Shown: piece by piece, positions 2,960 through 56,955 of the stretch | Numbering within the stretch: position 1 is the first letter of the stretch | Layout of the letters: every line of letters starts with the position of its first letter | Assembly (NCBI RefSeq): GCF_003473485.1 | Contig: NC_053046.1 | Location: 8,318,001-8,382,000 of the forward strand | Source of the DNA: Medicago truncatula | Lineage: Eukaryota; Streptophyta; Magnoliopsida; Fabales; Fabaceae | Direction of reading: 5' to 3' | DNA length: 64,000 nt | The notes under the pieces: generated by a model | The model's input: only the letters and a program-made list of their open reading frames with translations | Database searches by the model: none | What the model was told of the DNA's origin: nothing | Made by a program: the position numbers and the translations under genes

Positions 2960-3314
2960 AAATAGACTTCCATCTTCAACAAATACCTACATTCTTCACT
3001 TCACATCTTTTCTTACATTTTCTTCAAATGTCTTTTAGGGGTGTCGATGGTGTCATGGTCATTGTTGACCGTTCATAGGAACCCTGCAATTGCAATGCAT
3101 TGCAGCTTGTGTGGGGTTTATATAACAGTCAACAAAGACCCTTGACATCAAAGAAAGACACAGAAAATTACATAACATCTGGTTCGGATTTCTGTTTTCG
3201 GAAATCACTAACAATCTGATCCGGATTATATAATCCGGACAAAGGGTATTTTGGTCAAAATCACAGGGCGTGCAAGAAGGCTGTAGGGTGGGAAAAGTAA
3301 TAGTCTTAGTTTTA

Positions 3315-12500: not shown

Positions 12501-12879
12501 ATTATTCCATTCTTAATCGCTAAACCCTCACTCACCGGCGATCGCAGAGAACGAGACTTCCACCGTCGAAGCAAATGAAGCAAACATCTTCATCTTCCTT
12601 CTTGATCTGCTTCGGCGGAGGAGCTACTTTCGGAGTTCCTTTCGCCGGACGACCACGCTTCTTCTTCATAACTTCACTGTTCTCGGCGATGACAGCGAGA
12701 ACTACTTTCGGCGCAGTACAACAACCGCCGTCTCTCTCCGTCATGTTCACATCGGAAACTGCCTTCGTCGGAACTTCAACTTGATTCGTCTCCGCCGCAG
12801 TCACCGTAACGGTCGCCGGAACTGTCGCCGGAACTGTCTCTGTTGTAGTTGCCGGTGTTTCCGGCTTCGATTGTTCCAT
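6582..12879 (-). CDS. C3H44-like: PHD-SWIB-Plus3-GYF-CCCH zinc finger protein (C3H44/NERD type)
   Basis: Ten exons on the minus strand: 12879-12536, 12331-12252, 11321-11134, 10978-10108, 10013-9886, 9776-9717, 9636-9586, 9266-9196, 8684-8530 and 8431-6582. They sum to 3798 bp, or 1265 aa. Domains in order: an AT-hook-like KKKRGRPAKG near residue 75; a PHD finger (about 98-165, starting CFICFDGG); a SWIB domain (about 300-378); a Plus-3 domain (about 440-575); a GYF domain (about 738-790, with SWHYQDPSGKVQGPF); and a C-terminal CCCH finger (C-x7-C-x5-C-x3-H) just before the stop. This is the architecture of Arabidopsis C3H44 (At3g51120) and C3H19/NERD, where NERD links histone binding to RNA-directed DNA methylation in the nucleus. 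The start is the ATG giving MEQSKPETPA, since the codons before it lack an ATG. Intron 8 is of AT-AC type, and intron 2 carries a Stowaway-like MITE. A direct silencing role here is inference from the family. Confidence 0.92.
8685..9195 (-). other. U12-type AT-AC intron (intron 8 of the C3H44-like gene)
   Basis: Read on the minus strand, the intron starts ATATCCTTTTT right after exon 8 (ends at 9196) and ends TTGCAC right before exon 9 (starts at 8684). The start matches the U12 5' splice consensus (ATATCCTTT). TTCCTTGAC at 8703-8695 closely matches the U12 branch-site consensus, with the branch A about 11 nt from the AC end. Joining GA|G restores the frame as HRKELKECVEKL, the sequence expected for this family. 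No GT-AG alternative restores the frame. Confidence 0.88.
9277..9323. repeat. Micro-insertion with 18-bp duplication (intron)
   Basis: AAAAGAGGCATTCATGAT occurs at 9277-9294 and 9306-9323, separated by ttccacc plus A residues. It looks like a tiny poly(A)-tailed insertion flanked by a target duplication, just upstream of exon 8 of the C3H44-like gene. Confidence 0.6.
11908..12034. mobile_element. Stowaway-like MITE in intron 2 of the C3H44-like gene
   Basis: 127 bp with terminal inverted repeats starting CTCTCTCCGGTCA and ending TGACAGGAGAGAG, flanked by TA at 11906-11907 and 12035-12036. This fits the Tc1/mariner-derived Stowaway group. Confidence 0.75.
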
Positions 12880-13250
12880 AAATAAAAACAAATAAAAAAA
12901 TCGAATCGAATAGAAGAGAGAGAATCAATCAATAATAGTCAATAATCATGAATAATTAGGTAACATGAGTTGAATTTGAATTGAGTTGAGTTTGCGTGAG
13001 GGAAACTGAAAAGTGAAAACCCTAGCACATGGAAATGGAAATGGACTGGGTTCAGAGTAAGAAGGAACTGTTTGTGATAATTTTGGTAATTTTGTGGGAA
13101 AAAGTGAAGAGATCCCTATCAAGCTAGAGAGAGGAAGTAGAGAGAGAATATGTGGAACTCTGACTATCACTCAGAAGAAGAGAGAAGAAAGAAAGAAAGT
13201 AGACAACATGCCTACTATTGCTCACTCACGATTGGTTCAATGTGGCACCT
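12880..13250 (-). promoter_or_regulatory. Leader and promoter region of the C3H44-like gene
   Basis: The sequence upstream of the ATG is, on the coding strand, rich in pyrimidine tracts (ttctctctcttc-type), typical of a plant 5' leader. I cannot place the transcription start. Confidence 0.35.
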
Positions 13251-23657: not shown

Positions 23658-24302
23658 ATATAAAATATTTCTATAACAAATATATATCCATAACAAATAT
23701 ATTTCTATAACATATATATTTCTAAACCAAATAGCATATATATTATACTAATAAATACCAACATATAGAGCTGTCAAAACGGGCGGGCCTTATAGGTCGG
23801 CCCGTTTAGCCCGATTAATTATAGGGCTTGGGCCTTAAATATTGAGTCCGGCCCTAAAAAGCCCGATACCCGTTAGGGCTAGCCCGAACGGGCCGCGGGT
23901 AGCCCGTTAGCCCACATAACAAAAAAATCCTATAAATTATATATATTTTTTAAATAATTCTTTACTTAGTTGATTATCAAACTAAAAAATAAAAGTGAAA
24001 ATTCAATGAATTAACACATATGAATGTAATATAAAATTATATTTACTCGTTTAGTTATTTATAATTTTAAAGATCAAATATATAAATATCTATAACTTTT
24101 TTAAGGGAAGTAAATATCTATAACCATAATGTATCTAATTTATTTAAAATTGTTATCCTCGCCGTTTTAGTTTACGACTAGTGTACGAAAATGTTTGCAA
24201 TTTATTTTTGTGCTAGACATTATTTAAATATATTAAATATTTATTTATAAAAAATCTATAGGAGTATTTTTTAGTACTTTTTTATATAAAAAAAATGTAA
24301 TT
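22189..24302. repeat. 2.1-kb near-perfect palindrome (inverted duplication)
   Basis: The left arm 22189-23192 and right arm 23311-24302 are reverse complements with few differences, around a spacer of about 118 bp. The outer tip of the left arm reads AATTACATTTTTTTTATATA, mirrored at the right end. Both arms carry GC-rich GGGCCGGGC blocks, a (TA)n run and matching flanking DNA. The right arm contains most of an intact hAT element (23766-24442); the left arm holds an inverted copy of the same element cut off at 22189, so the last 140 bp are missing. The inverted duplication therefore followed the hAT insertion. Confidence 0.9.
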
Positions 24303-36996: not shown

Positions 36997-37373
36997 CAAT
37001 GTCCAACAGTTCAACCTTGAAAATTAAATTAATGGGGTTCTGTCTCTCGTCCTTGTTTGTTTTTCTTTTGTTAAATTGATTTTTCAATTTTTATTTATTT
37101 TGAGGTTGATTTTCTAATTCTTTTGATCCTTTTAAAATCGAAACTAAATTATCCTTTCAAAATTGAGAATGCGGGGCATTAGTTAAAGTCATAAAATAAG
37201 TAAGCTTCCTTAAAAAAAAAAAAAAGTAAGTTTGTATTAAAAAATTGTGTAATTATTATTAAGAAAAAAATAAAGATTGTTTTTACACACAATTTTTTTA
37301 TTAATAGAATTATTAACCAAATGCTCTTAGAGCATTATTAGTAGTTAGCAACACACATTAACAAAAATTGATA
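36997..37373. other. EDA2-like upstream region and spacer
   Basis: Immediate 5' flank of the EDA2-like gene. A poly(A)-bearing filler near 37196-37238 sits between two AAGTAAG copies and resembles the micro-insertions described elsewhere. No other feature. Confidence 0.35.
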
Positions 37374-37382
37374 ATATAGTTA

Positions 37383-38312
37383 GACTGGTGCTAGTCACAC
37401 ACAAAAAAAAAAAGTTACACTTAAATTTATTTAAAATTTTACAATAATATCAAAATTGCTCTCTTCATGTAAATTTTTAAAAACCCATCTTTTATGATCA
37501 TTCTGAACCCTTTCCCTCTTTCATCCACAAATCACCATAGATGTGCAACCAATATCTGAATCAACATCTATGTTATTGATCTGTAATATATTCATAAAAG
37601 TTAGTGAATTTCATGAATTTCATTTTCGATGAGTTTCTATTTGTTTATTGTTTGTTTTGGTATGAGATATGCCTGTCAGTCAATTTGATTTTAAGTAAGA
37701 GGTTAGTGTAAATTAAGTTTACGTGTATGTATATAAAAGGGGTTAGTGAGTTTACGTATATAGGTTAATGTAAATTCAAGTTTACGTATGTTCAATTTAG
37801 GTTAATGTAAATTCAGTTTACTTACATTCAATTTAGGTTAATGTAAATTAAGTTTACTTATGTTCAATTTAGGTTAATGTAAATTTAGTTTACGTATGTA
37901 TATAAGAGGTTAGTGTAAATTCAGTTTACTTACGTTCAATCTAGCTTAATGTAAATTAAGTTTACTTACGTTCAATCTAGGTTAATGTAAATTAAGTTTA
38001 CGTATGTATATAAGAGGTTAGTGTAAATTCAGTTTACTTACGTTCAATCTAGCTTAATGTAAATTAAGTTTACTTACGTTCAATCTAGGTTAATGTAAAT
38101 TAAGTTTGTAAATTCAGCTACTTACGTTCAATCTAGGTTAATGTAAATTAAGTTTACTTATGTTCAATTTAGGTTAATGTAAATTAAGTTTACTTATGTT
38201 CAATTTACGTTAATGTAAATTTAGTTAATTTAAAATTTTTATTTTAGTTAAAGGGTATATTAGTCATTATGGGATGTAATTTGTTTTTTTTGGGGTGTGA
38301 CTAGCACCAATC
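37383..38312. mobile_element. Mutator-type TIR element carrying a minisatellite
   Basis: 930 bp with inverted ends GACTGGTGCTAGTCACAC and gtgtgactagcaccaatc, and a perfect 9-bp target duplication ATATAGTTA (37374-37382 and 38313-38321). More than half of its length is a tandem array (37690-38225). Confidence 0.87.
37690..38225. repeat. 36-bp minisatellite with 108-bp higher-order repeat
   Basis: The basic unit combines 'ggttaatgtaaattaagttt' with 'acttacgttcaatcta', about 36 bp. In the middle a 108-bp block (three units, one beginning acgtatgtatataagagg) is repeated, with copies starting at 37892 and 38000. It lies wholly inside the TIR element 37383-38312. Confidence 0.85.
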
Positions 38313-38412
38313 ATATAGTTAATGTATCTAATTTTTGTATTTTACTAATTAAATTGTCTTTTTTTTTTTTGAAAGAAAGAAAGAACTAAATTGTGAATTT
38401 TACTAAATTGTA

Positions 38413-38698
38413 CTCCCTCCATTTTAAAATGAGTGTCGTTTTAGCCAATTACACAAATATTAAGGAATGGAATAAAGTAGTCAAATGTCATAACAATTTT
38501 ACCAAATTATCCTAATCAACTATTGGTTTGTTTTTTATTAAAGAAAAAAAATAATATTTTGGAAGTAGTGTAACATAGTATTAATTGAAGAGTACAATTG
38601 AAAAAAAGAAGTTATTATTGCATTGAAAAATGGAAGTGACATTCATTTTGAAATATTTTATTTTAGCTAAAACGACACTCATTTTAAAATTAAAGGGA
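38413..38698. mobile_element. Stowaway-like MITE
   Basis: 286 bp with inverted ends CTCCCTCCATTTTAAAATGA / tcattttaaaattaaaggga and TA on both sides (38411-38412 and 38699-38700). The shared stem continues through gtgtcgttttagc. Confidence 0.85.
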
Positions 38699-38706
38699 TA
38701 TTTTGT

Positions 38707-40044
38707 TGAGAACATATCATACGATAATGACATTTCTATATAAAAATGATGAGAATGAATTTAAACCATCATATCTAAATAGATGGTTCAAATTAAAAAC
38801 TCTAATTTAATTTAAGGGTTAAATATGTTTTTGGTCCTTATAAAATAGGGGCCTTTTAAGTTTAGTCCTTATTTAATTTTAATGATTCTTTTAGTCTATA
38901 AAAAAAAAATTCTGCACTCAGTATTAGTCCCTCCTCAATTCAAATTTGTTTAATTTATGTTTAAACTCTTGAGTTTTTGAACAATTTTTTACTGACGTGT
39001 TAAGAACATTACTAAAAGTTCCTATGCAAAAAATTGTCGCAAAATTTGATTTCTACGTCTAGATTTTGTTAATTTTATCTTTAACTTTTGCAGTTTTAAA
39101 AAATTCATATTTAATTCGTTTCATGTTAAAAAATTCTAAATTTTAGTAAATGAACCTTTCATAGTGTTCTAAACTTGTCTCAAAAAATCATTCAAAAATT
39201 TAAGAGTTTAAGGATAATTAAACAAACTTTGTTGTAATAGGGACTAAAATTAAAAGTAATTCTTTTTTGTAAGGACTAAACAATTTATTAAAATTAAATA
39301 AAGATTAAACTTAAAAAGTCCCTATCTTATAGGGACTAAAAACCTATTTAATCCTTAATTTAATTAACACATGTGTCTTTTTACACTCAATCATTTTGTG
39401 AATCTTTCATCTTCCATCATGCCATTCTCTTTCTGTCAAGGAAGTTCCAAGTAATTGATCTACCATAACATATTATTAATAAGCATGTCATAATCTTCTT
39501 GGAATGGGATTCAAGCATTCTGTGAAAGTTTTAATTTTTAATTAAATTTGTCATCAAGCAATTTCAAGGGTGAAACGTTGTAGGAATTCAAGCAATTTCA
39601 AGCATGTCATAATTATTGATTAATAGCTTGTTGTAGGAAAAGAATTTCCTCTCACAATCCTCATATGAAACTCTTTCAAGTAATAAATAATACAAGAAAT
39701 TTCACAGAATTAATCAAATTGAAATTGAAACAAAATTCAACACAATCCCTAAATCCCAAAAAAAGAGTCAAGGGTGAACAAAATGCAGAATTGAAAACGA
39801 AGAAGAGGAAGTCAAGGGCGAGAGAGTTGTGGTGGGCAAAAGAAGAAATGGAGGAGAACACAGATCTGGAAAAGGCAAACGCAGGAAGAAGAAAGGTCAC
39901 GTAGGTTTGGGTTTTTTTTTGGCACATGATGATTGAGTGTAGAAAGACATATGCGTTAATTAAATTAAAGCTTTTAATCCGAACCTTCTATTTAGATCTG
40001 ATGGTTTAAATTCATTCTCATCATTCTCATATTACATGTTCTCG
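38707..40044. mobile_element. TIR element (long TIR) interrupted by a family A MITE
   Basis: Left arm from 38708 (gagaacatatcata, then gatgagaatgaatttaaacc) is inverted at the right end (ggtttaaattcattctcatc ... tacatgttctc). The inverted repeat resumes after the MITE at 38816-39354 with ttaattaacacatgtgtc. Flanks share TATTTTGT (38699-38706 and 40045-40052). Without the nested insertion the element is about 790 bp with arms of about 150 bp. Confidence 0.75.
38816..39354. mobile_element. Mutator-type MITE, family A copy 2 (nested)
   Basis: 539 bp, end-to-end relative of 15195-15731 (starts GGGTTAAATATGTTTTTGGT, ends ctatttaatcc). Perfect 9-bp duplication TTAATTTAA at 38807-38815 and 39355-39363. 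It is inserted in the left arm of the 38707-40044 element. Confidence 0.88.
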
Positions 40045-40052
40045 TATTTTGT

Positions 40053-41046
40053 TTATATTTAATTTGACATTTTATATTTCAATGCAAATTAATAATAGTA
40101 TTTATTAAAGATATGTTAAAAAAATAAATAATAAATGCATCTAATAATTTATATAGAGTCTATATTTAAAGACTTGATTTTTTTTTCTTCTAATGGGGAC
40201 TTATTATTATGGATAAAGAGAGTATAGTTGAATGGACATTGGTTAAATAAATAAATAAACATAGAAATATTGTTGCAAATGGTGAATTTAACCTTTTAGA
40301 AGGTTAAAAATGATTGTTTTTAATACATTTTTTTTCTTACTTTTTTAACCGATGTCTCCGTGACTTAGTTTTGGGATGTCAATTGAACTGATTTCGAATG
40401 GGTATGTGCAAAAAATATCCATGTCGGATAGAGTAAAAATCACATTATTTTACATAATGTGAACCCTCCTAAGGATAATATACATAAGGTTAAAGAGAGA
40501 ACTTTGACTCTCTCTTTAACTTTATGTCTATTATTAAGAGAGTAAAAACCAAATTTTGAGTAAATTTTTTGCGCATGAACTTTTTATAATGTTTTAAACA
40601 AGTCTTTAAAAAATCATTCAAAATTCTTAAAATTTAAACATAATTAAACAAATTTTAATTTAACCGGAACTAAAACTAGGCGATAAACTTTTTTATATTG
40701 ACTATATTTACCTAGACCAAAGATTTATTCAACCAAAAAGTAATGTAATAAATATGATAAATTAGTTTGCTAAAAAAATGATAAATTATTGATGTAATAG
40801 AAGATTATTTAAAAAAAAAAAAAGGGCACGAAAAACTAGTAAGAAATGGAAAAAAGAAGGTATAGACATAGAAAGGTAAGGGCTACTCACTCTGCTCTTG
40901 AAGAAGCTTCTTGAAGAAGCTTAGTAGCTTGTTTTCCCTCTTTCTCTTGTTAAGGGAGATACCGTCTGTGAGAGAAACTTAACTCACTAGCTTGCCTGAA
41001 AACCGGCAACGACCAAAACAGATCCAAAACTAAGCAAGCAGAAACA
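40053..41046. other. Intergenic and 5' flank of the F-box gene
   Basis: AT-rich. Bases 40545-40690 resemble an interior piece of the 17116-18609 element family ('aaacataattaaacaaattt'). The F-box leader near 40885-40935 has short 'cttgaagaag' direct repeats. Confidence 0.4.
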
Positions 41047-44024
41047 ATGGTGGTATCATCCAAACGAAGAAAACTGGTAACGGGTGAAGAAGAAAACGAA
41101 GACAGAATCAGCTACTTACCCGACGGTGTTTTGAACCATATCCTTTCATTCCTCCCTACAAAAACCTCAGTTTCCACCGCTCGACTTTCTAGCCGGTGGC
41201 GCCACCTCTGGCAGCATCTCTCCGTTCTTCACTTCTCCGATGACTCCCATGAGTATGTCGACCAACCAGCGGAGCGTTTCAAGAGTTTCGCTCTTCTAGT
41301 TAACGGTGTCCTGGCTCTCCTACGTAATCCCCGTGCCATTCAGAAGATGAGTCTCAGCTGTGTTCATTCCTTCACGGACGATAAGTTTCGTGAATATTCC
41401 GTAGAGACTTGGGTTCGTGCTGCCATTGGACCCCACCTTCATGAACTCGAGCTTACTCTCTTTTGCGACGAAGATGCTCCCGACTTCAAGCTACCGCAAG
41501 CCCTCTTCTCATGCCCTAATCTAGTTTCACTCAGGCATGCATGCACTCACGCACTTTCATTTTTATACACTACATTTTGGTTTTAAAACATTTTTCTTTG
41601 CTTTTTGTAGTTGTAATGTTGTGTCCTTCAATATTTGTTTGGAATGAAGAACCAGACACAAATACGACATCTACACCAATGATAATTTGAGGAAACAAAT
41701 TAATTAAATGTGATATGTGTGAGTGTTGTGTATTGGACTTCAGACACACCTTTAATCAGAGGTATAGGTGTTACGGTGGTAGTAAAAAAAATCTAGATTT
41801 GAATTGTTAAATCTTACGATTTTGCGCTTATACTTTCCCTCAACAATTATGAGCATAAGCAAAATCTTATTTTGGTGGACACTTATATAATCTATGGATC
41901 TTCGAAACGAACGATTTTACGATCTTGGTCGTGGTGGTGGAACTAGAGAAAACAATTTTGGTTTTGGTTTTATTAAGACTTATGAGTTTGAATTGCATTA
42001 GTGTTATGCAACTATGTTGTAATGTGAGCTATGCTTATGATTTTAAATTGGCTTAATTGCACTTTTGGACCCCTATCTTTTCAAAAGTTGCGGTTATGGA
42101 CCCCTAACTAATTTAAATACAAAACAGCCCCCTATGTTTTGATTCTTTGGCAGTTTTGGACCCCCAAGGCAAAATAAAAATAAAAAATTTGACACGTGGC
42201 ACCTCACTTAGGGTGCCACGTCAGCGTTGACCGAGTCAACATTGGACTGGGGGTTCAAAACTGCCAAAGAATCAAAACATAGGGGGTTGTTTTGTATTTA
42301 AATTAGTTTGGGGTCCATAAGCGCAACTTTTGAAAAGATAGGGGTCCAAAAGTGGAATTAAGCCTTTTAAATTTACACAAGTATTTCAAGTGTGATTTAA
42401 GATGTTTTTGTCTTACTTATGCTATTTTACATGCATACATATGATTTTTTTTTTTTTTGAAGAAGCATAGATATGAACTTATATGCACATATATAATATA
42501 TTTGACATTTATGAGTTTTGTATAATCGTACATTTACGATTTTACTTCCCCCTACTGATCTTGCATAAAATCTAGACCTTGACTACCTTGGTTACGGCGG
42601 TTGGAATTTGTCATTTTAATAGCTAGAACATTTGATTTTATATTAGACCATTTCAATATGGCTACATAAGGATAAGGATTGAAATGAATACTCCACACAC
42701 ATTATAGACCGTTTTAAACATGAACAAATTTTAGGAGACTAAAACAAAACAAGAAAGTCCAAAAGTAAAAACTAGTATATTTGATTTGTTTGGTTTCTGA
42801 ATTGTGATATATAACATTTTCTTGTTTGTTCGTCAGTCTCTCTGGTGCAGTTCATGTAAGCATCCAACACTCCACGGCTGTTAGTTTGCCATCACTAAAG
42901 ATGTTGATGATCGACATTGGTTATGTTGAAGTATCTTCTGTGAATGCACTTCTTGATGGCTGCTCAAGTATAGAAATTCTGGATCTTGGCTTTTCAGCCC
43001 AAAGCTTGGATAAAGTTTGTGTCCCGCCTTCCTTGAAAAGGTTGAAAATCACCATTGAGAATGATGTTGGAGCTTACTTGGAAGTAAATGCGCCGGATCT
43101 TCAATACCTTAACATTACCCAAATCACATTCGGCGAAGGTTTCAGCTTGTACAGCTTGCCCAACGTGGTGGAAGCGTATCTTGATGTCTTTCCCACGTCG
43201 CTTGGTTCCATCGTACCTTTGCACAACCTCTTTGGCGCTCTCTCTGGGGCAAAACATCTCATGTTGAGTCGTTCAACAACCAAGGTTAAGGTTTTTCTTT
43301 AGTCATTTTACGTTTACCTCTTCATTTATAGAGTTAGTACCTAACCAATAATAAATCATTAAGTAACTATATTTCTTATAATCGTGATATATTTATATTT
43401 GTAGATAGATAGATATAGTTTTGTACTAATTACTACTTGATATCGTGTACAAACAGTGGCTGCTAGGTGAACCCCATGAGATGCTTTTTCAAGAATTTCA
43501 ATATTTGATTCGCCTTGAGCTCGTTCTTTCCTGGTTTAACTCAAATTCTCTTCTCCACTTGATTCAGAAATGTCCCTTGCTCCAACCTCTCATAATTCAG
43601 AATGACAAGGTTTCATTTAATCCAAGCTTAATTTGGTCTATTAAACTTTGTTGCTAAATCAGAAGTTGCATCTTATTGAACACTACGCTACTGAATATAC
43701 GACATGATTAATTCATTATTAAGAATATTGCATCTTATTCATGCCCTTTGTTGCTTACAGGAACGGTCGCCAATTTTAGCATGGTCTCCACAGCCAAGTA
43801 TTCCTAATTGTCTTGTATCCCACCTGAGCTTTATTGAATTTAAAGGATTTCGAGGATTTCCAGATGAGGTTTCATTTGTTGAGTATGTTTTGCAAAATGG
43901 ACATGTTTTAAAGACGTTGATTATTGCTGATATTTCCTTGGACCTAAAAAAGAAGTATCTCATTCTCAAGTTAGTATCTGATGTGCCAAGGGCCTCTGCA
44001 ATGTGCCAACTGAAATTTGATTGA
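41047..44024 (+). CDS. F-box/LRR/FBD-type protein
   Basis: Four exons: 41047-41534, 42837-43284, 43457-43609 and 43761-44024, summing to 1353 bp, or 450 aa. Residues 19-58 are an F-box (EDRISYLPDGVLNHILSFLP, then SSRWRHLW), which binds SKP1 in SCF ubiquitin ligases. The middle has the irregular plant LRR pattern (CPNLVSL, VSLPSLKMLMID, CSSIEILDL), and the end has an FBD-like segment (LSFIEFKGF ... VLQNGHVLKTLII). The substrate is unknown; this is a very large, fast-evolving plant family. Exon 1 appears to end at AG followed by GC rather than GT. A MITE lies in intron 1. The frame is open throughout, so it is likely functional. Confidence 0.88.
42050..42364. mobile_element. Mutator-type MITE in intron 1 of the F-box gene
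   Basis: 315 bp with inverted ends GGCTTAATTGCACTTTTGGA and ccaaaagtggaattaagcc, and a perfect 9-bp duplication TTTTAAATT (42041-42049 and 42365-42373). A partial relative lies at about 62955-63121. Confidence 0.88.
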
Positions 44025-45123
44025 ACTGTATCTCCTTACTATATATAAGGTTTGAACTCTCTCCCTCAATCCATTCTCTCTGTCTTACTACTTCATCAAA
44101 TTCAAGATGGCTAACATTGGGTTTAATCTGTAGTAATTAGGGACTGAACTGAATCTTGTTTTTAGCTGCATGCCACCACATTTCAATTATATTGTAGTGG
44201 AATTACATAATATATACCATGCCCTCAAAGTTTCTAAATTTTCTTTGATGTAGTTATTTTCATGCTTACCAAGAGGTGTTAATCGATGAGAAATCTCAAT
44301 CACAAGAGCAGAGAAGCAAAAAAACATAACTGAAATTCCTCTTGATTATTATTGAAATATAAGTAGCAATCTGCTAGTTACATTTGAGAACCTCTTCGAT
44401 TTATAGAGAGTGAATTGGTGAGGTATCAATTCTATCGAAAAGTGAGGCCGGAAGACAGAGGGTGTGTCTGATATGATTGGCCTCGGAGTGGCATGCCTCC
44501 AAAACGACAGGAGACGGCACATCCACCACCATTGGAGGTGGAGGCAACAACAGTATCCACTGCGTTTCTATTAAAAAGACAACATGGTTAAGCTAGGCCA
44601 TTTGGAAACGTTCCATTTATGAGTCGTTCGTGAGATTTGTATGACACCTATGTCGTGCACATTAGCATTTCTCTGTTGCAAATTAACTTGGAGATTTTCT
44701 ATTGTGTGATATTATTGTTATTGCAACTAAAGCTTTGTTTATTTGGGACATCAGTGTTCACTTTTATGGATCATCATCACCTAAACTGATTTGTCCATGA
44801 AGCATCTGTCTTTCTATTATAAACTGATTTGTATTAATGTAAGTTACATCTGTTCGAGTTTCAGAGAAAACTTTCCCTCTTGAAGTACTCAGATCAAGTT
44901 TTCTCTGATGATTTGGCTTTACTACAAAGAGGATATGGGAGCAAAACGTATAATATGTATTTTGCATTTCATCAGGTTCAAAACTCTCTTGTATTTTGAC
45001 AACTACTATTTATTTCCATATTTTTGTATATTAATATCAGGACATGGTAAACAAGGAAAAGTTCTTGAAATTGTGTCTTGTTCTTTTGTGTAGAACAAGA
45101 AAAGTCATCTAAGTATTTGTCTA
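44025..45123. other. Intergenic, 3' flank of the F-box gene
   Basis: No gene can be supported. The first 100-150 bases are probably 3' UTR. Confidence 0.4.
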
Positions 45124-45132
45124 ATTTTCACC

Positions 45133-45533
45133 AGTTTAAATATGTCTTTAGTCCTTGCACTTTCATCAGATTTTGGCATTGGTCCCTACATTTTTTTTTT
45201 TGGAATTGGTCCCTGCACTTTGTAAAAATATTGGTATTGGTCCCTCTGTTAACTTTCTGTTAAAAAAAAACACAACTATTGGTATTGGTCCTGCACTTTG
45301 TAAAAATATTGGAATTGGTCCTTGCACTTTGTAAAAATATTGATATTGGTGTCACGTGGCGTGAAATGATTGGGCCACGTGGCACTCCGTTGGTTTTGTG
45401 TTTTTTTTTTTTTAACAGAGGGACCAATACCAATATTTTTACAAAGTGCAGGGACCAATGCCAAACAAAAAAAAGTGCAGGAACCAATGCCAAAATCTGA
45501 TGAAAGTGCAGGGACCAATGACACATTTAAACC
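45133..45533. mobile_element. Mutator-type MITE with internal repeats
   Basis: 401 bp with inverted ends (agtttaaatatgtctttagt / acacatttaaacc) and a perfect 9-bp duplication ATTTTCACC (45124-45132 and 45534-45542). The interior repeats 'ggtccctgcactttgtaaaa' several times in both orientations. Confidence 0.87.
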
Positions 45534-45542
45534 ATTTTCACC

Positions 45543-46655
45543 TTAAAATATAGATTTTTCAATCACTTGCTTATAGTGCCAAAATCTCAGTATATGTAGC
45601 CAAGCTAAGCAATTTCAACTTTGTTTAGATAACTTAGGTATGTGGTGTAGCAAATATTCAGATATCCATATGGATAGGAATATGATAAAGCTTACTCAGA
45701 TATATGTATATTGTACAATATGACCATTTCTAAGATCTAAAACCTGTATGCATAATATGTCGAAATTTGGCTTCACATGTGCTTAATATTCAACTATTGA
45801 CTTCAAATTTTAGACAGGTTTTGGTTGTACATTTCATATCATCTTATGCACAAATACAATCTCTCTTTCTATGACAAACAAATGTTGGTTGGTATAGCTA
45901 TATGCTTAGAACTTTGCATTCCTTGGAAGGTCACTGTTTAGGAGGCAAATGTTTATCAAGGATTTCAACTAAGACCAAAGTTATCAAAATTTGTAATTTT
46001 ATAAACTTCATTAGTTCAAAGCTATATAAGGTTGATGCAAACCAATGATTCCTTGGTCACATATAGATTCAACTATTGAGTAATTCTTCCTTGGTCACAT
46101 ACAAATAAAAAATATTTGGGCAACACACATAGATTAGAAAAAGTAAAAGATAAAATGAAAAAAATAATAAAAAATGATGCGACTTATTTATTTATTTTTT
46201 ATTTTATTTTTTTCCATTTATGAATGCTTGCCTAAATATTTTTGATATGTGTTTGTGACCAAAAATGACTTGCTCTCAATTGTTTATAGAATCTAGCTTA
46301 CATTCTCAAATTTGTACCTTTGAACTCACATAACCTCCATCCTAATGTAAACAGATGTAGTTCAATAAATTTTTCATGTGCAAACAGTTTATTCCTAATA
46401 GGAATTTTCTTTTTACCAATGTAATTTTTTTATACGGTTTTATTATTTAGGTGTATATGTCTCTGAGGATATTTTTATCTTTCATGCCTCTCGCCATTAT
46501 TCTTATCTCAAATGAGGTTTGATAGTATTGTTCCTTTATTTGGTAATCAGTGATATTTCTATGCAATAATTTTTATTTTCAGGAAAAAAAATTCTTTTGT
46601 TGATGGAGTTTTAATATTGAAAAATTAACAAACAATTTTTAGGTTAAAAGTGACT
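45543..46655. other. Intergenic
   Basis: No gene. A small possible MITE spans about 46091-46262: ttggtcacatacaaataaaa at the left is partly inverted at the right (gatatgtgtttgtgaccaa); no target duplication is visible. Confidence 0.4.
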
Positions 46656-47677
46656 TCTACTTTACTATATAGGACAATCTTTGTCCCTTTTATTGACCAT
46701 TTTACCCTTATTAGGGGTATTTCAGTAAATTGGTAATTGGAGAATGTTATATTATATATACAGAAATTTTTCCCCTTCTCTCTCTAAACCTCATAATTTT
46801 TTTCCCTTCTCTTTCTAAAAACCCATCGTCCCCCCCCCCCTCTCACTATTCACCATCTTCTCCAAATGTTTCTCCCTTTTCACTCAAAATTACCAACATG
46901 CAAGGCTACAGTCATGACTTAATTGTTATCTCATACTTCCAGCAAGCTCCATTTTCCTCATTTGTTCCCTCTAGGGCGCAGCTTTTCTCTATTCTGCTCT
47001 TGGGGTTTATTTCAGAAATTGGATCTAGAATCTCATGCATGTGGTTTCTGGTGTTGATTTTGGAACTGTTTGTGTGTTGTGTTGGTGACCAGAACCAATT
47101 AATTGGAGGATGGTACAAAGTAGAGGTTTGACTGTTAAGGGAGGTAAGGGATTAGGAAAGGTACTTGCTTATTCATTTTCTTCTTCCATTTTCTTGATTA
47201 TCAATGGTGACTTTTTTACTTTTTTTGGATTTGGGTTGTTGTTTGGTTTTGTCCAGGAAAATTGATGTAGGGATTTCGTCCAATTCAACTTCTGATGAAT
47301 TGATTGGTGAAAATATAGAATGTCAGGTATGTGGCCTTTTTAATTAATTTTTCTGAAGTTTAAATTTTATATCTGGTTTGGAATTATTTATTGAATTTGA
47401 TGATGAGTTTCCTCTATTTTGGTGATTGATGAATTTTTATTTTTCTGTGAAAAAAAAATGATTTTGAAGTGTCTGTTTGATTATTTGTGGAAATTTTTTT
47501 ATGCGGGTCAGAATTATTTGTTGAATTGAATAATGGGTTTCTTCTGTTTTAGTGATTGGTGATTTTTTTTTGTTATGAAAAATTCAGTTGTTTTGATGAT
47601 TTTGGTGTTTTTATGAAAATTTTAGTTGATTGATGATTTTGATTTTTGATTTTTGATTTTTTTGTTGAAAACTTCAG

Positions 47678-47806
47678 TTGATTGACCCTGCTGATAGGAC
47701 AGTAGATAGAGACTTATCACTCATTCAAGAATTGGGTTTGAAGTTTGTGTATGCTATAAATACACATGTACATGCTGATCATGTTACTGGAACTGGCCTC
47801 ATCAAG
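47678..47806 (+). pseudogene. ETHE1: ETHE1-like persulfide dioxygenase, single captured exon
   Basis: An in-frame exon of 43 codons with clean borders (acttcag|TTGATT ... ATCAAG|gtatta). It encodes [12 protein letters not shown] and [11 protein letters not shown], the first metal-binding motif (HxHxDH) of the metallo-beta-lactamase fold of mitochondrial sulfur dioxygenase ETHE1 (At1g53580 type). None of the other ETHE1 exons, with the remaining metal ligands, are found nearby. An isolated exon cannot make an enzyme, so it is a fragment carried in the putative Helitron. Confidence 0.8.
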
Positions 47807-49540
47807 GTATTAGTATGCACCTGATGGTAAATTGTGAAATGAAGTTGTCGTGATAGGTGCTTTTGTATATACAAAAACAGCTTCACAGAAATTGCGAAAA
47901 ATCTTAATTTTATCAAAATACATACCTTGATGATTACATTGGTCGTTAAGTTGTCATAATAGGTGTTAAAAATAGCTTATATTGTGAAAAAACTTAAATT
48001 GTGTATGCTATAAGCTATTTTGATGACATTGGCTAGGATAGGTCCTTCAATTTCTACAGAAGAATGTTGATGAAGCTTTGGGTATGTATGAGGTACTAAT
48101 CAATGAAGATTCAACATTGAAGATGATGTATGTATGAATAAGGATGAAAATTTCTGGAAAATGGCTTTTGAATTAGATGGAAAATGGCATCTCTGTATGT
48201 ATTTTTGCTTATAACTGAGTTTAGAGGGAGTAGTTAGGAAATAATATGCATGATCGTATGATGTGTGATATAAGGTGTGGATACATATTGGCTGTTCATG
48301 AAGAGTTTAGAATGAGAATTTTAAGTCTTTTTTATACGCAACATGCCTAAAAAGTTCATCAAATTAGTATGCCAAATTAGTGTTTTATTTTATATACCAT
48401 GCAAAATATATTATATAAGTTTTATTCATGGCCCCCCATTTCTGCCGCCATTGCACACACATATTTATCGGGAACATATGCATAGGCACTATCATTGGAT
48501 AAGCATGAAAGTGTGGAGAAGTATATGATTCCATTCCATTGTTGAGTTCAAAAGTAGATGTATAATTGTATTCCCATATGTGCAAAGAGTGCATGTACTT
48601 GAACGTGACACTCTTTGCTTATCTTGGTTACAACTATTTTATGAGTTATTGGGGAGATTTATCTGCATGTTGTATTCAATTTGAGAAAGATTTAAAGCAT
48701 TAGGCTCTTTGATCCAATCCAATTATGTGGTCACAATAATAACATGAAGGTCTCTATCAAAATACGTATTTATGCCGGTTAATTTGCCATCTTATGGTTA
48801 TAGTTGGAATCTCAATCTGAACCTTTACCATCAGATTAATTGGTGTCCTTATATATCAAGTCATTCATGATCTTACTTTGGTTAAGAGTTCCTAAACGTT
48901 TGGGAAATACACTAAAGAGCATTTGGTTCTTTTCTCTATATAGTCATAGTCACAGTGACTCATTGAGAACAAAACAGTACTCTCCTTTAACTTTCAAAAT
49001 ATGCTGCGCTTTGAAGCTTTTTGCTAAAAATGGAACATTCTTTGTATAGAACCAATTGTTGATATAATCATGTTCAGTTTCTGTCATTATTGAGTGAAAT
49101 TTTCGATTTTGGCAGAAATGAAAGTCAGTTTTGAATTACCTTTGATTATCAGAGGTGGTTCTTGCAGTGTAAGCACTAACTCTTCGTACGGCAATCACAA
49201 ATAGTTTATTTTCTTTGAATAAATTTTTCAGTATGTCACTGCACCATATGGTAATGTTTTATTTGTCTATAATTGATTGATGTTTGAAGCATACACTTCA
49301 ATCCAACTTTTAAACCTTTACCTACTGATGAAAACTAAACGTAGAACACACATTATAATGAAAGTGGTTTGGTTTTCTATGTGGAACTAGAAATGTAAAG
49401 TTTTATTAATGGAAAGACTAAGGTGGTATTTTGTTTTCATTATGACATTATAATATAACATACAAATCTTGGGTACTTGGTGCATAGATACACCAACCAT
49501 TAAGTTGGCAATGTTCTCCAACTCTCTTCCACAACTGCAG

Positions 49541-49699
49541 GTCTCTGTAGAATATGGGTTATATGAAATGATGAGCTGGAGGGCAATTAGGCTTGAGGTG
49601 GCTCCTAAAAATGAAAATTGGGGTTTCAATATATCAGAGCGTGAGGCCATGCTTTCTGCAGGGACAGTGGATAAAAATGTAGAAAGGGTCTATAAAGAG
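49541..49699 (+). pseudogene. Unidentified captured exon
   Basis: A 53-codon open exon (GTCTCTGTAGAATATGGG ... AAAGAG) with an acceptor (ctgcag) and donor (gtataa) and protein-like composition (VEYGLYEMMSWRAI, NWGFNISEREAML). I do not recognise the family. Since neighbouring pieces derive from unrelated genes, it is most likely another Helitron-borne fragment. Confidence 0.4.
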
Positions 49700-51047
49700 G
49701 TATAATGGATTCTTTTTCATTTTCAATTGCAAAATATTTTTGGCACTTGACAATTATATAATATGATCATTACTTTTTGTGTTTGTGGTTCTGTTTTTTA
49801 TTTGAGACCCATTTTAACTGATGTGAAAAAAAAATTGTCAGGAATTTATTTGAGACACAATAAGAATGTTCAAATAAGATGAGGATGTTACTTTCTGACA
49901 GTATTGTATGAGCCCAAACTCTAGAAAAGGATAGGTCAAATAAGATGAGGAGTTACTTTCACAATCCTTAAGATTCATAATATTCTCTATGTTTTAGCTT
50001 CAATTTTTTTCTATTTCATTTATTTATAATATGGCTTCTTCCAAGAAATCTGAATTGGAGCTCTTTCAATCTAGCTATGAACCTATTGTTTCCGTTATTG
50101 AGACCACCAGAATGATCACATTAAGGATTTCAGAAAAGGTGATTATATCATGCTTGCAAAAATAGGATATTAATTTAAATCATGCACACTTTAACTTTCC
50201 GTGAAAGAAAAGATAATCAAGCTTGATTCCTTAAATTATAAATACTCTTGGAGGAAATTCCAGTGCAAATAGCAGAGAATCATGTGCTTAAATTTTTACA
50301 TGGAAACTCATACATGAATGCATATAAAATTTGTAGTCAAACAAACTGTTATATGAACAGGTTAATTGGTTTTCTTTTTGTTTTTTTATTTTTATTTCAT
50401 TAAGTTATCAATCTGCCATCACAATGATTGTGCTATCTATTTTGAATACAGCTATGTTTCACAAAATTGTTTGCTTCTTGTCTGTTTTTCATATCCATTT
50501 GTTAAGTATGCAGTGGATTAGCAAGTGTTAAACATAAACCGGCACTAAGCACTGAAACTAACATGTGATATGACTCACTGTCATTAGGAAAAGAAAAGGA
50601 TGGATGTCAACTGCTTGCAGAATCACTCGATACAGAGTGCTTATCATGTTGCACAAAGGTTTTTATGCCTGAAATATTCCAATCAAGTCGGGAATACGAT
50701 TCGGCCAGCTTTGATGAATCTTAAGGAGTACTGCATCAAGCAAAAGCTTTAAAAATGGCCTAAAGGACAATCTTTTCTTTGGGCTGATTCTTTTCAGCAT
50801 ATGCAACTGTCATTACTCATCAAATTGTTTAATTTTGTGAACAAATTGCAGGTGTTGCTGTTTGAAATTTATAAGCCTGAAATTTATTGTGGTGGTCTTT
50901 GAGAGGACAGATACAAAAGATGTAAGCCTGATTTTTGTTTAGTTAGTTTGAAATCAAAATCTGTGTCTTAGTATTGAGTTCGATTCTTAATGATAAAAAA
51001 AAAGTCAATTTTAGTCCTCTGAATTGATCATAAAACATGTTTTGCAG

Positions 51048-51485
51048 GAAAGTATGTACCAGAGCTTGCTGAACTTATCATTGATAGAAACAATAACCCT
51101 TCCCTTCATATTGATCTCAAGGGCATTTTGGTATGTTCCTACATGATTTAAAATCTAGCTTTAAGTTCTAGATAAATATCAAAGTATAAAGAATCTTAAT
51201 TTAAAATAAATATGAAAGAGAAAAAATAATGCTTTTATTTTTTGGGCAGCTGGGAAACCCTGAAACTTATGCTGAAGATTAGTTAGGAATGGTTGATTAT
51301 GCTTGGAGTCATGCAGTGATATATGATGAAACCTATAAAACAATCCGAAGAAGCTGTGACTTTAACAGTAGTGATTCATGGAAAAATGAAGAATGTACTA
51401 ACGGTGTGGATGAAGTGCTCAAACAGTACAATGAAATTGATATCTACAGCCTGTATACCTCTGTCTGCTTTGCTACCTTCATTTT
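51048..51485 (+). pseudogene. Serine carboxypeptidase-like (SCPL) fragment, two exons
   Basis: The first piece (51048-51130) reads GKYVPELAELIIDRNNNPSL, then HIDLKGIL; after an intron, 51250 onward reads LGNPETYAED-stop-LGMVDYAWSHAV, then YNEIDIYSLYTSVCFA. This is the region after the catalytic Ser of S10 carboxypeptidases of the SCPL26-35 type. A TAG at 51280-51282 replaces what is usually Trp, and neither the rest of the protein nor the catalytic triad is present. It is a dead fragment inside the putative Helitron. Confidence 0.85.
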
Positions 51486-52475
51486 CAAACTAATGTTTGT
51501 ACCACTTTTAATTGTACAAAAGGTAGAAAAAAAAGGTCAAGAAAACAAAAGAGCTATCATTTTACTACATAGAACTGACACTTATTAGTTGTTGATTTTT
51601 GCAGCTTTATTCCTGATTAATTTTTTAGGAATTTTATTGTTTTACTATATTGAAAAATTAATCATGAAGACTTTTTTAAGAGTTATATTATATTAATTTC
51701 TTCAAAAAAAAAAAAGGGTTATATTTTATTAGTGTGAATTATGTTTGGTATGCTGTTGTAAGAATTAGAACTATAAAGATATGGTGATCAAAATAAGACA
51801 TGCTCTTTTTGTACAACAAAGTTTTATAATGCTTTGTCAAATCTTTTAGTCCCTACAAAATAAAATCATATTTTTTAGTTCCTGTGATATTTTCCTTAAG
51901 CATTTTAGGGATCAAAATTGTTGATGGAAATTTTTGACAATGACTAAAAGTGCTCATGGAAAATTTTTTAGGACTAAAAATGCTGATAAAATTTTCTAAT
52001 ATATAGATAGGAATTGTGCAGTTTGCTTGCTTTTCTCATTTATGAAGTTTGCATTTTCCGTAAACTTGATCATCCGTATGCAATATAGTAACATGAAAGA
52101 GACTTCTTTTACAAATAGCATAGATGGGAAGAGATCAAATGCAGCCATATATGTGTGTTCCATATCTCATACTTGATAATCGTGTACAGTTATGCAAGTT
52201 AAATTTTAATATCAGAATGAAACAAAATTGTATACCGCATCTTCAAATACTATTTAAAAGGAAAGAAGTCTTTGTAGCAATATTTTATAAGCGGTGGCTG
52301 ATTTTGCTTATTTTTCCTTTGGAACAATTTTTTTTACAAGATACGTTATTCAACCCGTACGAAGCACGGGTTTATAACTAGTTATTATACAAAAATGGTG
52401 TAAACTCGGTAGTAAAAGCTTGACTTAGTAACGTTGAGGGATGGTTCAAATCACATCTAGAACATTTGTAAAATA

Positions 52476-52524
52476 GATATTATTGCCACCTTTTTTTTCG
52501 AACAAGGATATTATTGCCACCTTT
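52476..52524. repeat. Micro-insertion with 18-bp duplication
   Basis: GATATTATTGCCACCTTT at 52476-52493 and 52507-52524 brackets tttttcgaacaag. On the minus strand the filler reads cttgttcg plus poly(A), very like the terminus of the LINE at 2941-2960 (tttgttc plus poly(A)). Confidence 0.65.
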
Positions 52525-52756
52525 ACTATTAAATGGTTTCCCTTTTCCCATTTTCTTCTTCTAAGAAACATAGAAAAATACAAATTATCAAGCAACTTTA
52601 ACTTTGTATATTACTAAAGCTCTTTTCATTTTTATTTTGGTATGTATAGGAAGTAGCAAGCATAAATTTAATTAAATAAAAATAATGAAATCATTCTTGT
52701 AATTTTTTTTTTTAAATAAAGAAATCATGGTGTAAAGTGATAGATATAATGGCAGT

Positions 52757-52840
52757 CCTCGTGAGTTTAACTCAGTTGGCATGGACAATGCATAATATAT
52801 GCAAAGTCTAGGGTTCGAATCTCGGCCACCACAAAAAAAA
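52757..52840 (+). repeat. tRNA-derived SINE head, second copy
   Basis: TTTAACTCAGTTGG around 52766-52779 (A box), gggttcgaatc at 52811-52821 (B box), then ctcggccaccac and an A tract. Same family as 16852-16934. It lies just beyond the Helitron 3' end. Confidence 0.6.
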
Positions 52841-54682
52841 ATATAGATATAGTATCAAATTAGTTTATGTTTATCCAAAAGAACTTGCATTGTATGAGAT
52901 GACACTGACTCTCTTTCAGTTTTATCAGAGGGTCCTGTGTTCGAATGTCTTGCAAATGCATCAATATTAAGGTTTATCACGAAATAATAATATAAAAAAG
53001 AGATTTAATATTGATGCATTTGATCTTCCTCAAGAGTAAGTGATAAATAAACCAAATTAAAGGTTTTTCACGAAATAATAATATATAAAAGATGTTTAAA
53101 TTTAAAATAGTTGGATTTCAAGGGAAGAAAATCTATGGAAAAGAAAAAGTTGATTAATGTAATCCGCAACCTCAATTGCAACAAGAAAGCCAGTTGGAGT
53201 CTTGAGAAAGTAATTCCTGGAGGGAGACCACGCAAACGTCAATTATACCACAGAGAAACATGCATTGAATTTACACAACAAATGAAGCCTAATATCATTA
53301 TCAATCTTAATCGGTGTATATAATAATTTGACAGTTTCTTCTTCCAACAGCAAAAATGCATGTCGGCTGTTTTTTTGTTTCCTTCCAACTCTAGCAGCTT
53401 ACATTTTATTTGAATTAATTTAATTATACGCGATTCGTGATAATTTTAAGATTTCCTCTTACAATACTTTTGAAATTTATACTTTGAAATTTTTCAGTAA
53501 TTTTAAAATATCCAAGCATAAGGTGTTGAAAAGTGAAAGAAATGCTGATAGTCGATGAATTGGCTCCTTATACAGTACCTAAAGACTTTGATGAAGGAAT
53601 ATATCAAAGCATTAGAAAGGTACTTCTTTCCGTCATAAATTCTTGTTGCAGTTTGATGATATGTACTATTCACATAAATCACATAACTTTGATTTGTATC
53701 AAAGATGTTTAATTTATTTTAATGAATATTTTCAAACATATAAACTTTTTATAATTTTTTATTGTATTAGAAAATAATAATCGTTAAAGTTGTACATTGA
53801 CGGCGTGTGTGAACTGATCAAGTGTGACATTTTTTGAAATAGGAGTAAATGATTATCAAAATTTGACTTTATTTTTTACCAATGGTTAACTTTTAGAAAT
53901 CATTTGAGAATCAATATAAACCATGTACTAAATTCATATATAGTGATCATATATTACTTCAATCATAATTACTTTTAAATTCCTGCATATAAATTGTTGG
54001 TGATGTAATTTTTTTACACTGGCAGGATATGAAAATTAAACTCAAACTATTATAACTAAATATGTCTATAAAACATATTATAGCCATGAACCAACCGGGG
54101 TTAAGTCTAACATAAAGAGGAGCACTCTCACAACCTAGCAACCATGTTCATGTTCCGGAAAAGTATTCACATTTAGTGTATGACCCATCATCTCAAATAA
54201 GATGATCTACGTAAAACACTGAAGAAAGAAACATATTATAGCCGTGCAAGTCTTCATCATGGTTGTTAAATCATGCATGGTGTCTTTTAGAAATTGATAT
54301 TAGATGCTCAATAATTCACAAACAACGACAAAAACAAGGCAGCAGTCCTTTGATTTCTGCCATCAATTGTGGTTTGGCTAAACACATTTTCTATTTTTAT
54401 TTTTTGAAAAAGAAGTATTATCCTCTATGTCATGGGGGGGGAGCACAAATGTCACATACAAAACTGAAACCAAAAACAAATTTCAACACACTATTCATTG
54501 AAAAGGGGGTCAGAGGTGTATAATAAACAATGCTTTGCAGTACAGATTCTATGTGTTGAACTAAAAAACTAAATTCCTACATGAGAGAACAAATTCTTTA
54601 GACTCGCATTGCTTTGTAGCATGATCTATGGTAGATTTCTGATGTAAGATCCTGTTGGAATCGGACTGCCTTGTAGCACGAT

Positions 54683-56955
54683 CTATGGCTGCCAAGATAA
54701 ACAAAAAACATTCATGAGATGCATATGCATGTCAATCAGACATGCTTTGGAACGTGTAACGGTAAATCAAACATACGCTTAAAAGCTTCTACTTAATCCT
54801 GTCATTGGATGATTGCATTGAAGACAGAAAGATGAATGGTTTGTGGTTCGGAAAAATAACAAAATAATAAGGAACCAATCTGCAAAAGTTCAAGATATAT
54901 TTTACATAGAAACTTTTTAAGGTAATATTTCAAACCACAATCATAAACACATGGATATTGGCCTTGCAATGTTAATTTCTGTAGAATGCATCAGTAGAGA
55001 GGATTCATCTCAATTATTGTTGATGTCCCTTTAAGTAAAGCTGGTCATTTGATTTCACAAGATGAGATGAAATAGTGGAACTGAATCCCTCAAGGTGGAT
55101 GATTGCTCATTCATTGGACTAGCTCAAATTTTGAAAGATCGAATTCAAGTTCAAACGCGACAAGTTTTATTTGTAGATAATCATAATTTCAACAATCACA
55201 TCACTTTGCAATATCAGTCCTATATCCCAATCATAACTACATTAGCTATACATACAAGTTCATTATATTTAATGCATTAGAGATGAATCTAGCACCACTA
55301 ACTAGAAATTATTCATATTTAGCGTGATTACTTTGTACCAGTAGCAACAGCCAATAGCCAATATGTTTATCAATTTCACTCTAAGTATATTTTGCGGTAT
55401 CTAATTTATGTTAAACACGCATTTATCACAGCAGAAATTTATAACCAGCAGAACAAAGTTTACTTCCCATGAACTCTAACCTGATTATTTGATGCATGTT
55501 CATGTATTCTGTTGTTAGGCTTCATGTTCAAATCAATCAATTTATTTTCCATCTTAGAATTCCCATCAGCATTAGGTTCTGAAGTTGGAACCGGAGGCAT
55601 CCTATGATTTTGTTGCTTCTCTCCCATTTTTTGTTTAGGAAGTGGACTTTGTCCTCTTTTAATATCACCTGGATCTAGAGGTTGTGAAGCCGGGTTGTCT
55701 GCATTACTAGGTTTATCACCTGGAAACTATGAAACAAAGAGGTATTATACATAAATTTGAAGGCATGAAGAAGAAAATTTCAAGAGAGTAAACAATCATT
55801 TTAGTCCCTAAATGTGTGAAACGATGTCACTATAATCCCTGAACGTATCAAATTTCAAAAACAACCCCGAGAATGACTAACAAAAGATACATTTGAGGAC
55901 CAAACTAACTAATAAAAGAAGCATACACGGACCGAACTGACTAATAAAAGACACATTCAGGTATACTTTTATAGTAATTTTGATACATCGAGGGACTGTA
56001 GTGACTGCCTCACACATTCAAGGATTAAAATTACTATAATCAATTCAAGACTAATTCATTTTATAAAGGATAGACACACCTCAACTCTTTGCCTAAAGAG
56101 AAGATATCTTCCATGCGTTCTTTTGCCACCAACATGAACTATCATATCACATTGCAAACAAAGGGAACTTCCATCTGTTTCGCAATAGAAGAAAGCTGCA
56201 ACAAGATTGAGAAAAACAAATTCATAAGCAACGAAAAACATCAGAAGAACAACACTACAAGGATCAAAAGAAGAAAGTTCTTACCAGGTGCATTCTCACA
56301 TATGTCGCACCGCGGCACGTCGCTCGGACTTGCAAGACCAACCCTAACATGTCTACTAGCTAACTTATTGCACATATGAACCTGCAATTTCCAAAAGTTA
56401 CAAACTTTGAACCATCAGTTGAAAGACATTGACCAGGAAAATCACTCAAATTAAAATACCAGATTTAAACATAAAACTAACTTAGATTTTTTTAAACAAA
56501 ATCGAGAAGGAGAAATTATTTAGTAACGACGATTTTAGCTTATAAGGTCAAACTCTTACGGCTGAGCGTACACCTTAGATTTCGAATTTACACAAGTCCA
56601 CAAAAAATATCAAATCAAATCGAATTATATTTATGAATTATGAAACTAAATTGCAAGTGGTCCAATCCAATCTTTAACCAAATCCAACATAAATGGACTT
56701 ATTTAAATTAAGCAAGATTCTAAATTTCAATATTGCTACATTAATAATGAAACATTACACTTACAAAAAAATATCCAATTATACAAAAATTCATGGTCAA
56801 TGATTAACATGAAATTGAATAGTAAATATAAGAAATCAAATCAGAGATTGATGATAAGCTACCTTCTCATCACAAGCACGACAAAGTGCAGCCTCATCAG
56901 CAGCACAGAAAACTATAGCGGCAGCACTCTCACAAGCATCACAAAGCGTTCGCAT
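54683..56955 (-). CDS. BBX18/19: Double B-box zinc finger protein (BBX18/BBX19 type)
   Basis: Exons on the minus strand: 56955-56863, 56381-56285, 56195-56080 and 55726-55481 (184 codons), followed by a terminal exon I cannot fix. Residues 5-47 form B-box 1 ([20 protein letters not shown]) and 56-98 form B-box 2 ([20 protein letters not shown]), with all zinc Cys/His/Asp positions present. The tail has FPGDKP and [19 protein letters not shown], as in Arabidopsis BBX18/19 (DBB1 group), which lack a CCT domain and modulate light and flowering signalling through COP1/HY5 and CO interactions. A GGCAG acceptor at 54689 would add Pro and a stop (54688-54683); reading through the donor would instead add six residues. 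Intron 3 carries a MITE. The 5' coding exons are certain; the 3' end is not. Confidence 0.85.
55786..56041. mobile_element. Mutator-type MITE in intron 3 of the BBX gene
   Basis: 256 bp with inverted ends (gattttagtccc-like; left 'aatcattttagtccctaaat', right 'attcaaggattaaaattact'). Flanks ATTTCAAGA (55777-55785) and AATTCAAGA (56042-56050) match at 8 of 9 bases. Confidence 0.75.

Follow-up and report, generated by a model that had tools for sequence, protein, structure and literature searches.

A putative non-autonomous Helitron carrying exons from at least two, and probably three, unrelated genes in a legume-like genome

The 64,000-nucleotide stretch of DNA analysed here (the window) carries on its plus strand, between positions 46656 and 52381, a series of gene fragments lying in the order ETHE1 (persulfide dioxygenase) exon, a further open exon (the third exon), and two serine carboxypeptidase-like (SCPL) exons, followed by a hairpin and CTAG (Table 1). 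The peptide encoded by the ETHE1 exon matches PDB 2gcu with an E-value of 1.5e-19 (a record named putative hydroxyacylglutathione hydrolase 3, which we take to come from Arabidopsis) and PDB 4chl, persulfide dioxygenase ETHE1, with an E-value of 3e-13. Against Pfam the same exon reached only E 0.098 (Lactamase_B). Because Pfam performs poorly on isolated short exons like this one, tblastn is the more suitable test for ETHE1, and when residues 2-245 of 2gcu were searched against the whole window the exon was recovered with 81% identity over 43 aa (E 3e-19), the remainder being chance matches with a best E of 3.3. The two SCPL exons, which individually match Peptidase_S10, were joined and compared with PDB 1whs (serine carboxypeptidase II, presumably from wheat), giving E 1.4e-13. 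An intron is retained between them, and the translation of exon B contains an in-frame TAG at 51280-51282. ETHE1 and SCPL are unrelated protein families, and their exons, which share a strand, are separated by 3.2 kb.

Table 1. Coordinates of the putative element and of the features within it (positions in the window)
Feature	Position	Strand	Details
Putative non-autonomous Helitron	46656..52381	+	5726 bp; borders TC ... hairpin-CTAG followed by T, with internal gene fragments; 5' border inferred
Putative 5' terminal region, TCTACTTTACTATATAGG...	46656..46740	+	TC at 46656-46657, then AT-rich stretch; preceded by T
5' hairpin GGACAA-TCT-TTGTCC	46672-46686	+	6-bp stem
Possible ATG-bearing exon (MVQSRGLTVKGGKGLGK)	47110..47160	+	Reading frame, then gt; speculative
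ETHE1 (persulfide dioxygenase) exon	47678..47806	+	43 codons, phase 0-0, ag/gt borders, stop-free
Third exon	49541..49699	+	159 nt, 53 codons, phase 0-0, ag/gt borders, stop-free
Serine carboxypeptidase-like exon A	51048..51130	+	ag/gt borders; homologous frame stop-free; Pfam Peptidase_S10 E 0.0055, below curated cut-off
Serine carboxypeptidase-like exon B	51250..~51480	+	3' limit approximate; Pfam Peptidase_S10 E 4.7e-7
3' terminal hairpin AACCCGT-ACGAAGC-ACGGGTT	52352-52372	+	Perfect 7-bp stem, 7-nt loop
CTAG 3' terminus	52378-52381	+	Preceded by 5-nt spacer TATAA; followed by T at 52382

The third exon found no match in Pfam or in PDB (E up to 10 in both cases), and none of the 96 stretches in prokaryote genome contigs that fitted a pattern derived from it was confirmed. 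It aligns with a plant phosphoglycerate-mutase-like protein at 51% (70 columns, E 3.9e-15), a match to be taken as a lead and not as a test, because the comparison sequence was chosen after the exon had been seen; that protein itself matches His_Phos_1 in Pfam (E 1.2e-14). As a lead, then, the third exon probably belongs to the plant phosphoglycerate-mutase-like (histidine phosphatase) family. Judged from these sequence matches, the exons would come from at least two, and probably three, unrelated genes. The original prediction had listed an ETHE1 exon, SCPL exons with a nonsense codon and an additional exon piece, all in the same orientation; every one of these pieces is borne out, the last as an open stretch between ag and gt, and all of them lie on the plus strand. 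Other open stretches in the segment, such as 47198-47344, 50569-50721 and 50588-50749, have no Pfam match.

Exons in one orientation with their splice borders retained could also be what is left of a single native locus after decay in situ, such as adjoining ETHE1 and SCPL genes. Against this, the tblastn search with 2gcu found one ETHE1 exon only in the whole window, and Pfam scans of the flanks (E up to 1, stops read as X) detected neither further Peptidase_S10 nor Lactamase_B matches in 37000-46655 (plus strand only) or from 52382 to about 62000 (both strands). What these scans did reveal was an F-box/FBD gene on the plus strand of the left flank and, on the minus strand of the right flank, a B-box zinc finger plus a weak Apc15p match; the plus strand of the right flank, from 52382 to about 62000, gave no Pfam match. 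On searches of this extent, we regard a decayed native locus as very unlikely.

The last gene fragment, from SCPL, lies about 0.9 kb upstream of a terminus of the Helitron kind. The hairpin followed by CTAG and T was found at exactly the position predicted for it. Helitrons end in CTRR, mostly CTAG, with a GC-rich hairpin nearby; here the terminus is CTAG, and the stem contains 4 G/C pairs and lies 5 nt before CTAG, a spacing inside the 2-10 nt rule of EAHelitron. Measured to the terminus itself, the stem ends 9 nt away, a little short of the published distances of 10-12 or 10-15 nt, the latter being the distance given in a passage of PMC6591975. The terminal 42 nt, folded as DNA, yielded -8.2 kcal/mol (z -3.7), with 1 of 200 shuffles equally good. 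To quantify how often such a signature is expected, we searched, on both strands, the window itself and 300 simulated windows with its dinucleotide frequencies. With a strict signature (CTAGT preceded, 2-10 nt ahead, by a stem of at least 7 bp with at least 4 G/C pairs), the terminus of the element is the sole match in the window, compared with a simulated mean of 0.02 per 64 kb and 6/300 simulated windows with any match, figures that are somewhat flattering because the criteria were set after the site had been seen. Looser definitions are less discriminating. Requiring CTRRT and 7 bp or more of stem gives one match in the window (mean 0.18; 54/300 simulated windows). Lowering the stem minimum to 6 bp also gives one (mean 0.36), and since 91/300 simulated windows contain such a match, a signature this loose means little by itself. 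In a preceding run of 60 simulations under looser settings (distance 0-15), the figure was 0.27 per strand. When CTAG was accepted without the T, again with 6 bp as the shortest stem, two sites were observed (mean 0.12; 35/300 simulated windows). The second of these hairpin-CTAG sites, at 23882 on the minus strand, was rejected, being followed by C instead of T and sitting in a GC-rich palindromic tract; this tract, at 23770-23915, consists of CGGGCC/GGCCCG-like words amid AT-rich DNA and is perhaps a transposon end. Searched as a degenerate exact pattern, the 3' end had 0 matches in viral and 0 in prokaryote contig collections, as expected for a plant, and a literature text search for ten letters of the hairpin together with "Helitron" returned zero papers.

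The least secure part of the element is its 5' end, with a common dinucleotide, TC, at its start and a T before it. The start had been predicted at 46656, and TC is indeed present at 46656-46657, though this dinucleotide is frequent and the border was picked by eye. The left flank, ...GTGACT, ends at 46655 and the right flank, TTATTATAC..., starts at 52382, the flanking bases of the element thus being T and T. According to one passage of PMC6591975 Helitrons always insert between A and T, and a passage of PMC4683698 describes insertion between A-T "or sometimes between two Ts". The folding of 46656-46755 is not significant (z -1.5; 16/200 shuffles equally good). Neither end recurs within the window, where the other matches to them are 12-17 nt long with E 0.038 or worse. 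GC skew was likewise considered. Its segment averages are 0.11-0.14 inside the element versus about 0.02 outside; however, there is no skew step at the proposed ends, and within 40-60 kb the skew is strongest over 47041-48337 and not over the element, for which reason we dropped GC skew as boundary evidence. In that segment G makes up 71.5% of G+C, compared with 50.3% in the remaining 40-60 kb, and 0/200 block shuffles were as strong, on a shuffle grid coarser than the observed fit. A single captured piece surrounding the ETHE1 exon could account for this asymmetry.

The same observations bear on a genomic mosaic formed without any Helitron, by segmental duplication or by filler DNA at double-strand break repair, its hairpin-CTAGT having arisen by chance or come from a solo Helitron end. 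Such an origin would agree with a 5' end that lacks independent support (5' ends of Helitrons are less conserved than 3' ends, in the wording of a passage of PMC6591975), with a GC skew that shifts inside the element instead of at its ends, and with the chance occurrence of loose 3' signatures in simulations. It accounts less well for the rarity of the strict signature and for its placement downstream of the last of several fragments that share an orientation, and we consider a mosaic of this kind rather unlikely.

Across the six frames of the element (E cut-off 1 for five of them, 10 for the sixth), Pfam matched Peptidase_S10, Lactamase_B and Apo-CIII only, the last of which we took as a chance match; Rep, helicase and transposase domains gave zero matches. 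The element would therefore be at most a non-autonomous member of the Helitrons and would depend on Rep/helicase supplied from elsewhere. Pack-MULEs also carry gene fragments, between terminal inverted repeats. The cargo here, unspliced pieces of several genes, would suit a Pack-MULE or another terminal-inverted-repeat transposon; in a repeat search of 46000-53000, however, no inverted pair of at least 14 nt was found at the two ends, and the 3' end carries the Helitron signature, so that we give this possibility the smallest credence of the alternatives. Tandem repeats in 46000-53200 amount to one short array. Overall, the best reading of 46656-52381 is that it is likely a non-autonomous, multi-donor Helitron. 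Of the original prediction of a Helitron carrying exons of at least two unrelated genes, what holds is the good 3' terminus, the two unrelated protein families in one orientation and the failure to find further parts of those genes in the stretches scanned; less certain are the 5' boundary, a TC after T, and the third donor, for which the comparison sequence was chosen after the exon had been seen. A majority of Helitrons are presumably non-autonomous, without Rep/helicase of their own, as stated in a passage of PMC4683698.

If the segment is such a Helitron, an autonomous relative would supply the Rep/helicase that nicks it at the 5' TC, one strand would be peeled off by rolling-circle replication as far as the 3' hairpin-CTAG, where the process would stop, and the freed strand would be inserted between two Ts at another site. 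In earlier rounds, genomic DNA including introns would have been taken from an ETHE1 gene, an SCPL gene and probably a phosphoglycerate-mutase-like gene, and the three captured pieces would now persist as fragments in one orientation. The anatomy fits stepwise capture, in that the pieces are unspliced, share an orientation and are interrupted by at least one nonsense codon. For Helitrons the mechanism commonly proposed is rolling-circle transposition in which the hairpin acts as the stop signal (PMC6591975, PMC4683698), and PMC4683698 also argues for at least one alternative pathway. The 0-0 phase shared by the ETHE1 and third exons makes in-frame splicing of the two possible, which would put SCPL exon A out of its native reading frame. 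A hypothetical chain of 47110-47160, the ETHE1 exon, the third exon and the SCPL exons has 152 codons before a stop, and is one chain among many. From the sequence we think it highly improbable that the element makes a spliced chimeric transcript; if it did, a new fusion protein of ETHE1 and a phosphatase-like part could be expressed in a legume.

Among known systems, the closest in anatomy are the gene-capturing Helitrons of maize, which, according to PMC3288121, likewise have TC and CTRR/CTAG termini, a 3' hairpin and fragments of several genes; the element described here differs in its legume-like genome and T-and-T flanks. PMC3288121 reports that stepwise capture was inferred in maize and that captured fragments could form chimeric genes, and gives 0-12 gene fragments (mean 3) for helA Helitrons and up to 5 (mean 1.8) for helB. 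Mothra of rice, as described in PMC4683698, resembles the present element in being non-autonomous, with 5' TC, 3' CTAG plus hairpin and a presumed captured gene fragment, and differs in being high-copy, with blocs of tandem repeats and a 16-bp hairpin located 13 bp from the end. One paper, PMC4413256, was found to combine the terms Helitron, serine carboxypeptidase and "captured". Pack-MULEs are similar in gene-fragment cargo, and differ in their terminal inverted repeats, of which the element has none of at least 14 nt. Multi-donor Helitrons are already well documented in maize (PMC3288121), and the element is an ordinary but tidy example of this known behaviour. As a compact multi-donor gene capture in a legume-like genome it provides raw material for capture studies, and it is a trap for gene annotation because its exons could attract false gene calls.

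Several other features of the window were noted. An F-box/LRR/FBD gene occupies 40972-44024, about 2.6 kb upstream of the element, and between its F-box/FBD open frames, at 42122-42292, the Rfam MIR2619 precursor matches on both strands (192 and 125 bits); this near-palindrome may be a miniature inverted-repeat element. A match to the Rfam MIR2587 precursor at 3050-3148 (both MIR2619 and MIR2587 being, we assume, Medicago families) lies just downstream of a LINE-like frame, a 442-aa open frame at 1520-2848 with a zf-RVT domain (E 2.7e-19) that is probably the tail of a LINE-type retroelement. Of 4 papers containing both MIR2619 and Medicago truncatula, two name the species in their titles (PMC4212123 and PMC3160423), and the window probably comes from Medicago or a close relative. 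On the minus strand, GYF and CCCH-type zinc finger frames (6582-8471) and SWIB and Plus-3 domains (10100-10996) probably belong to one host gene, which perhaps extends to 12924 (the frames at 11095-11538 and 12532-12924 have no Pfam match) and which in our view resembles plant NERD-type proteins. A sigma-70 promoter scan was set aside, since it carries no meaning in plant DNA. Immediately beyond the 3' end of the element, 52758-52830 contains a tRNA-like box A, recognized visually, and a box B with the exact sequence GGTTCGAATCTC at 52812-52823, perhaps a SINE, the box pattern having been chosen after viewing; ARAGORN called no tRNA there. Further downstream, the B-box zinc finger match on the minus strand has E 4.4e-7 and falls at 56863-56949, coordinates computed from the residue range.
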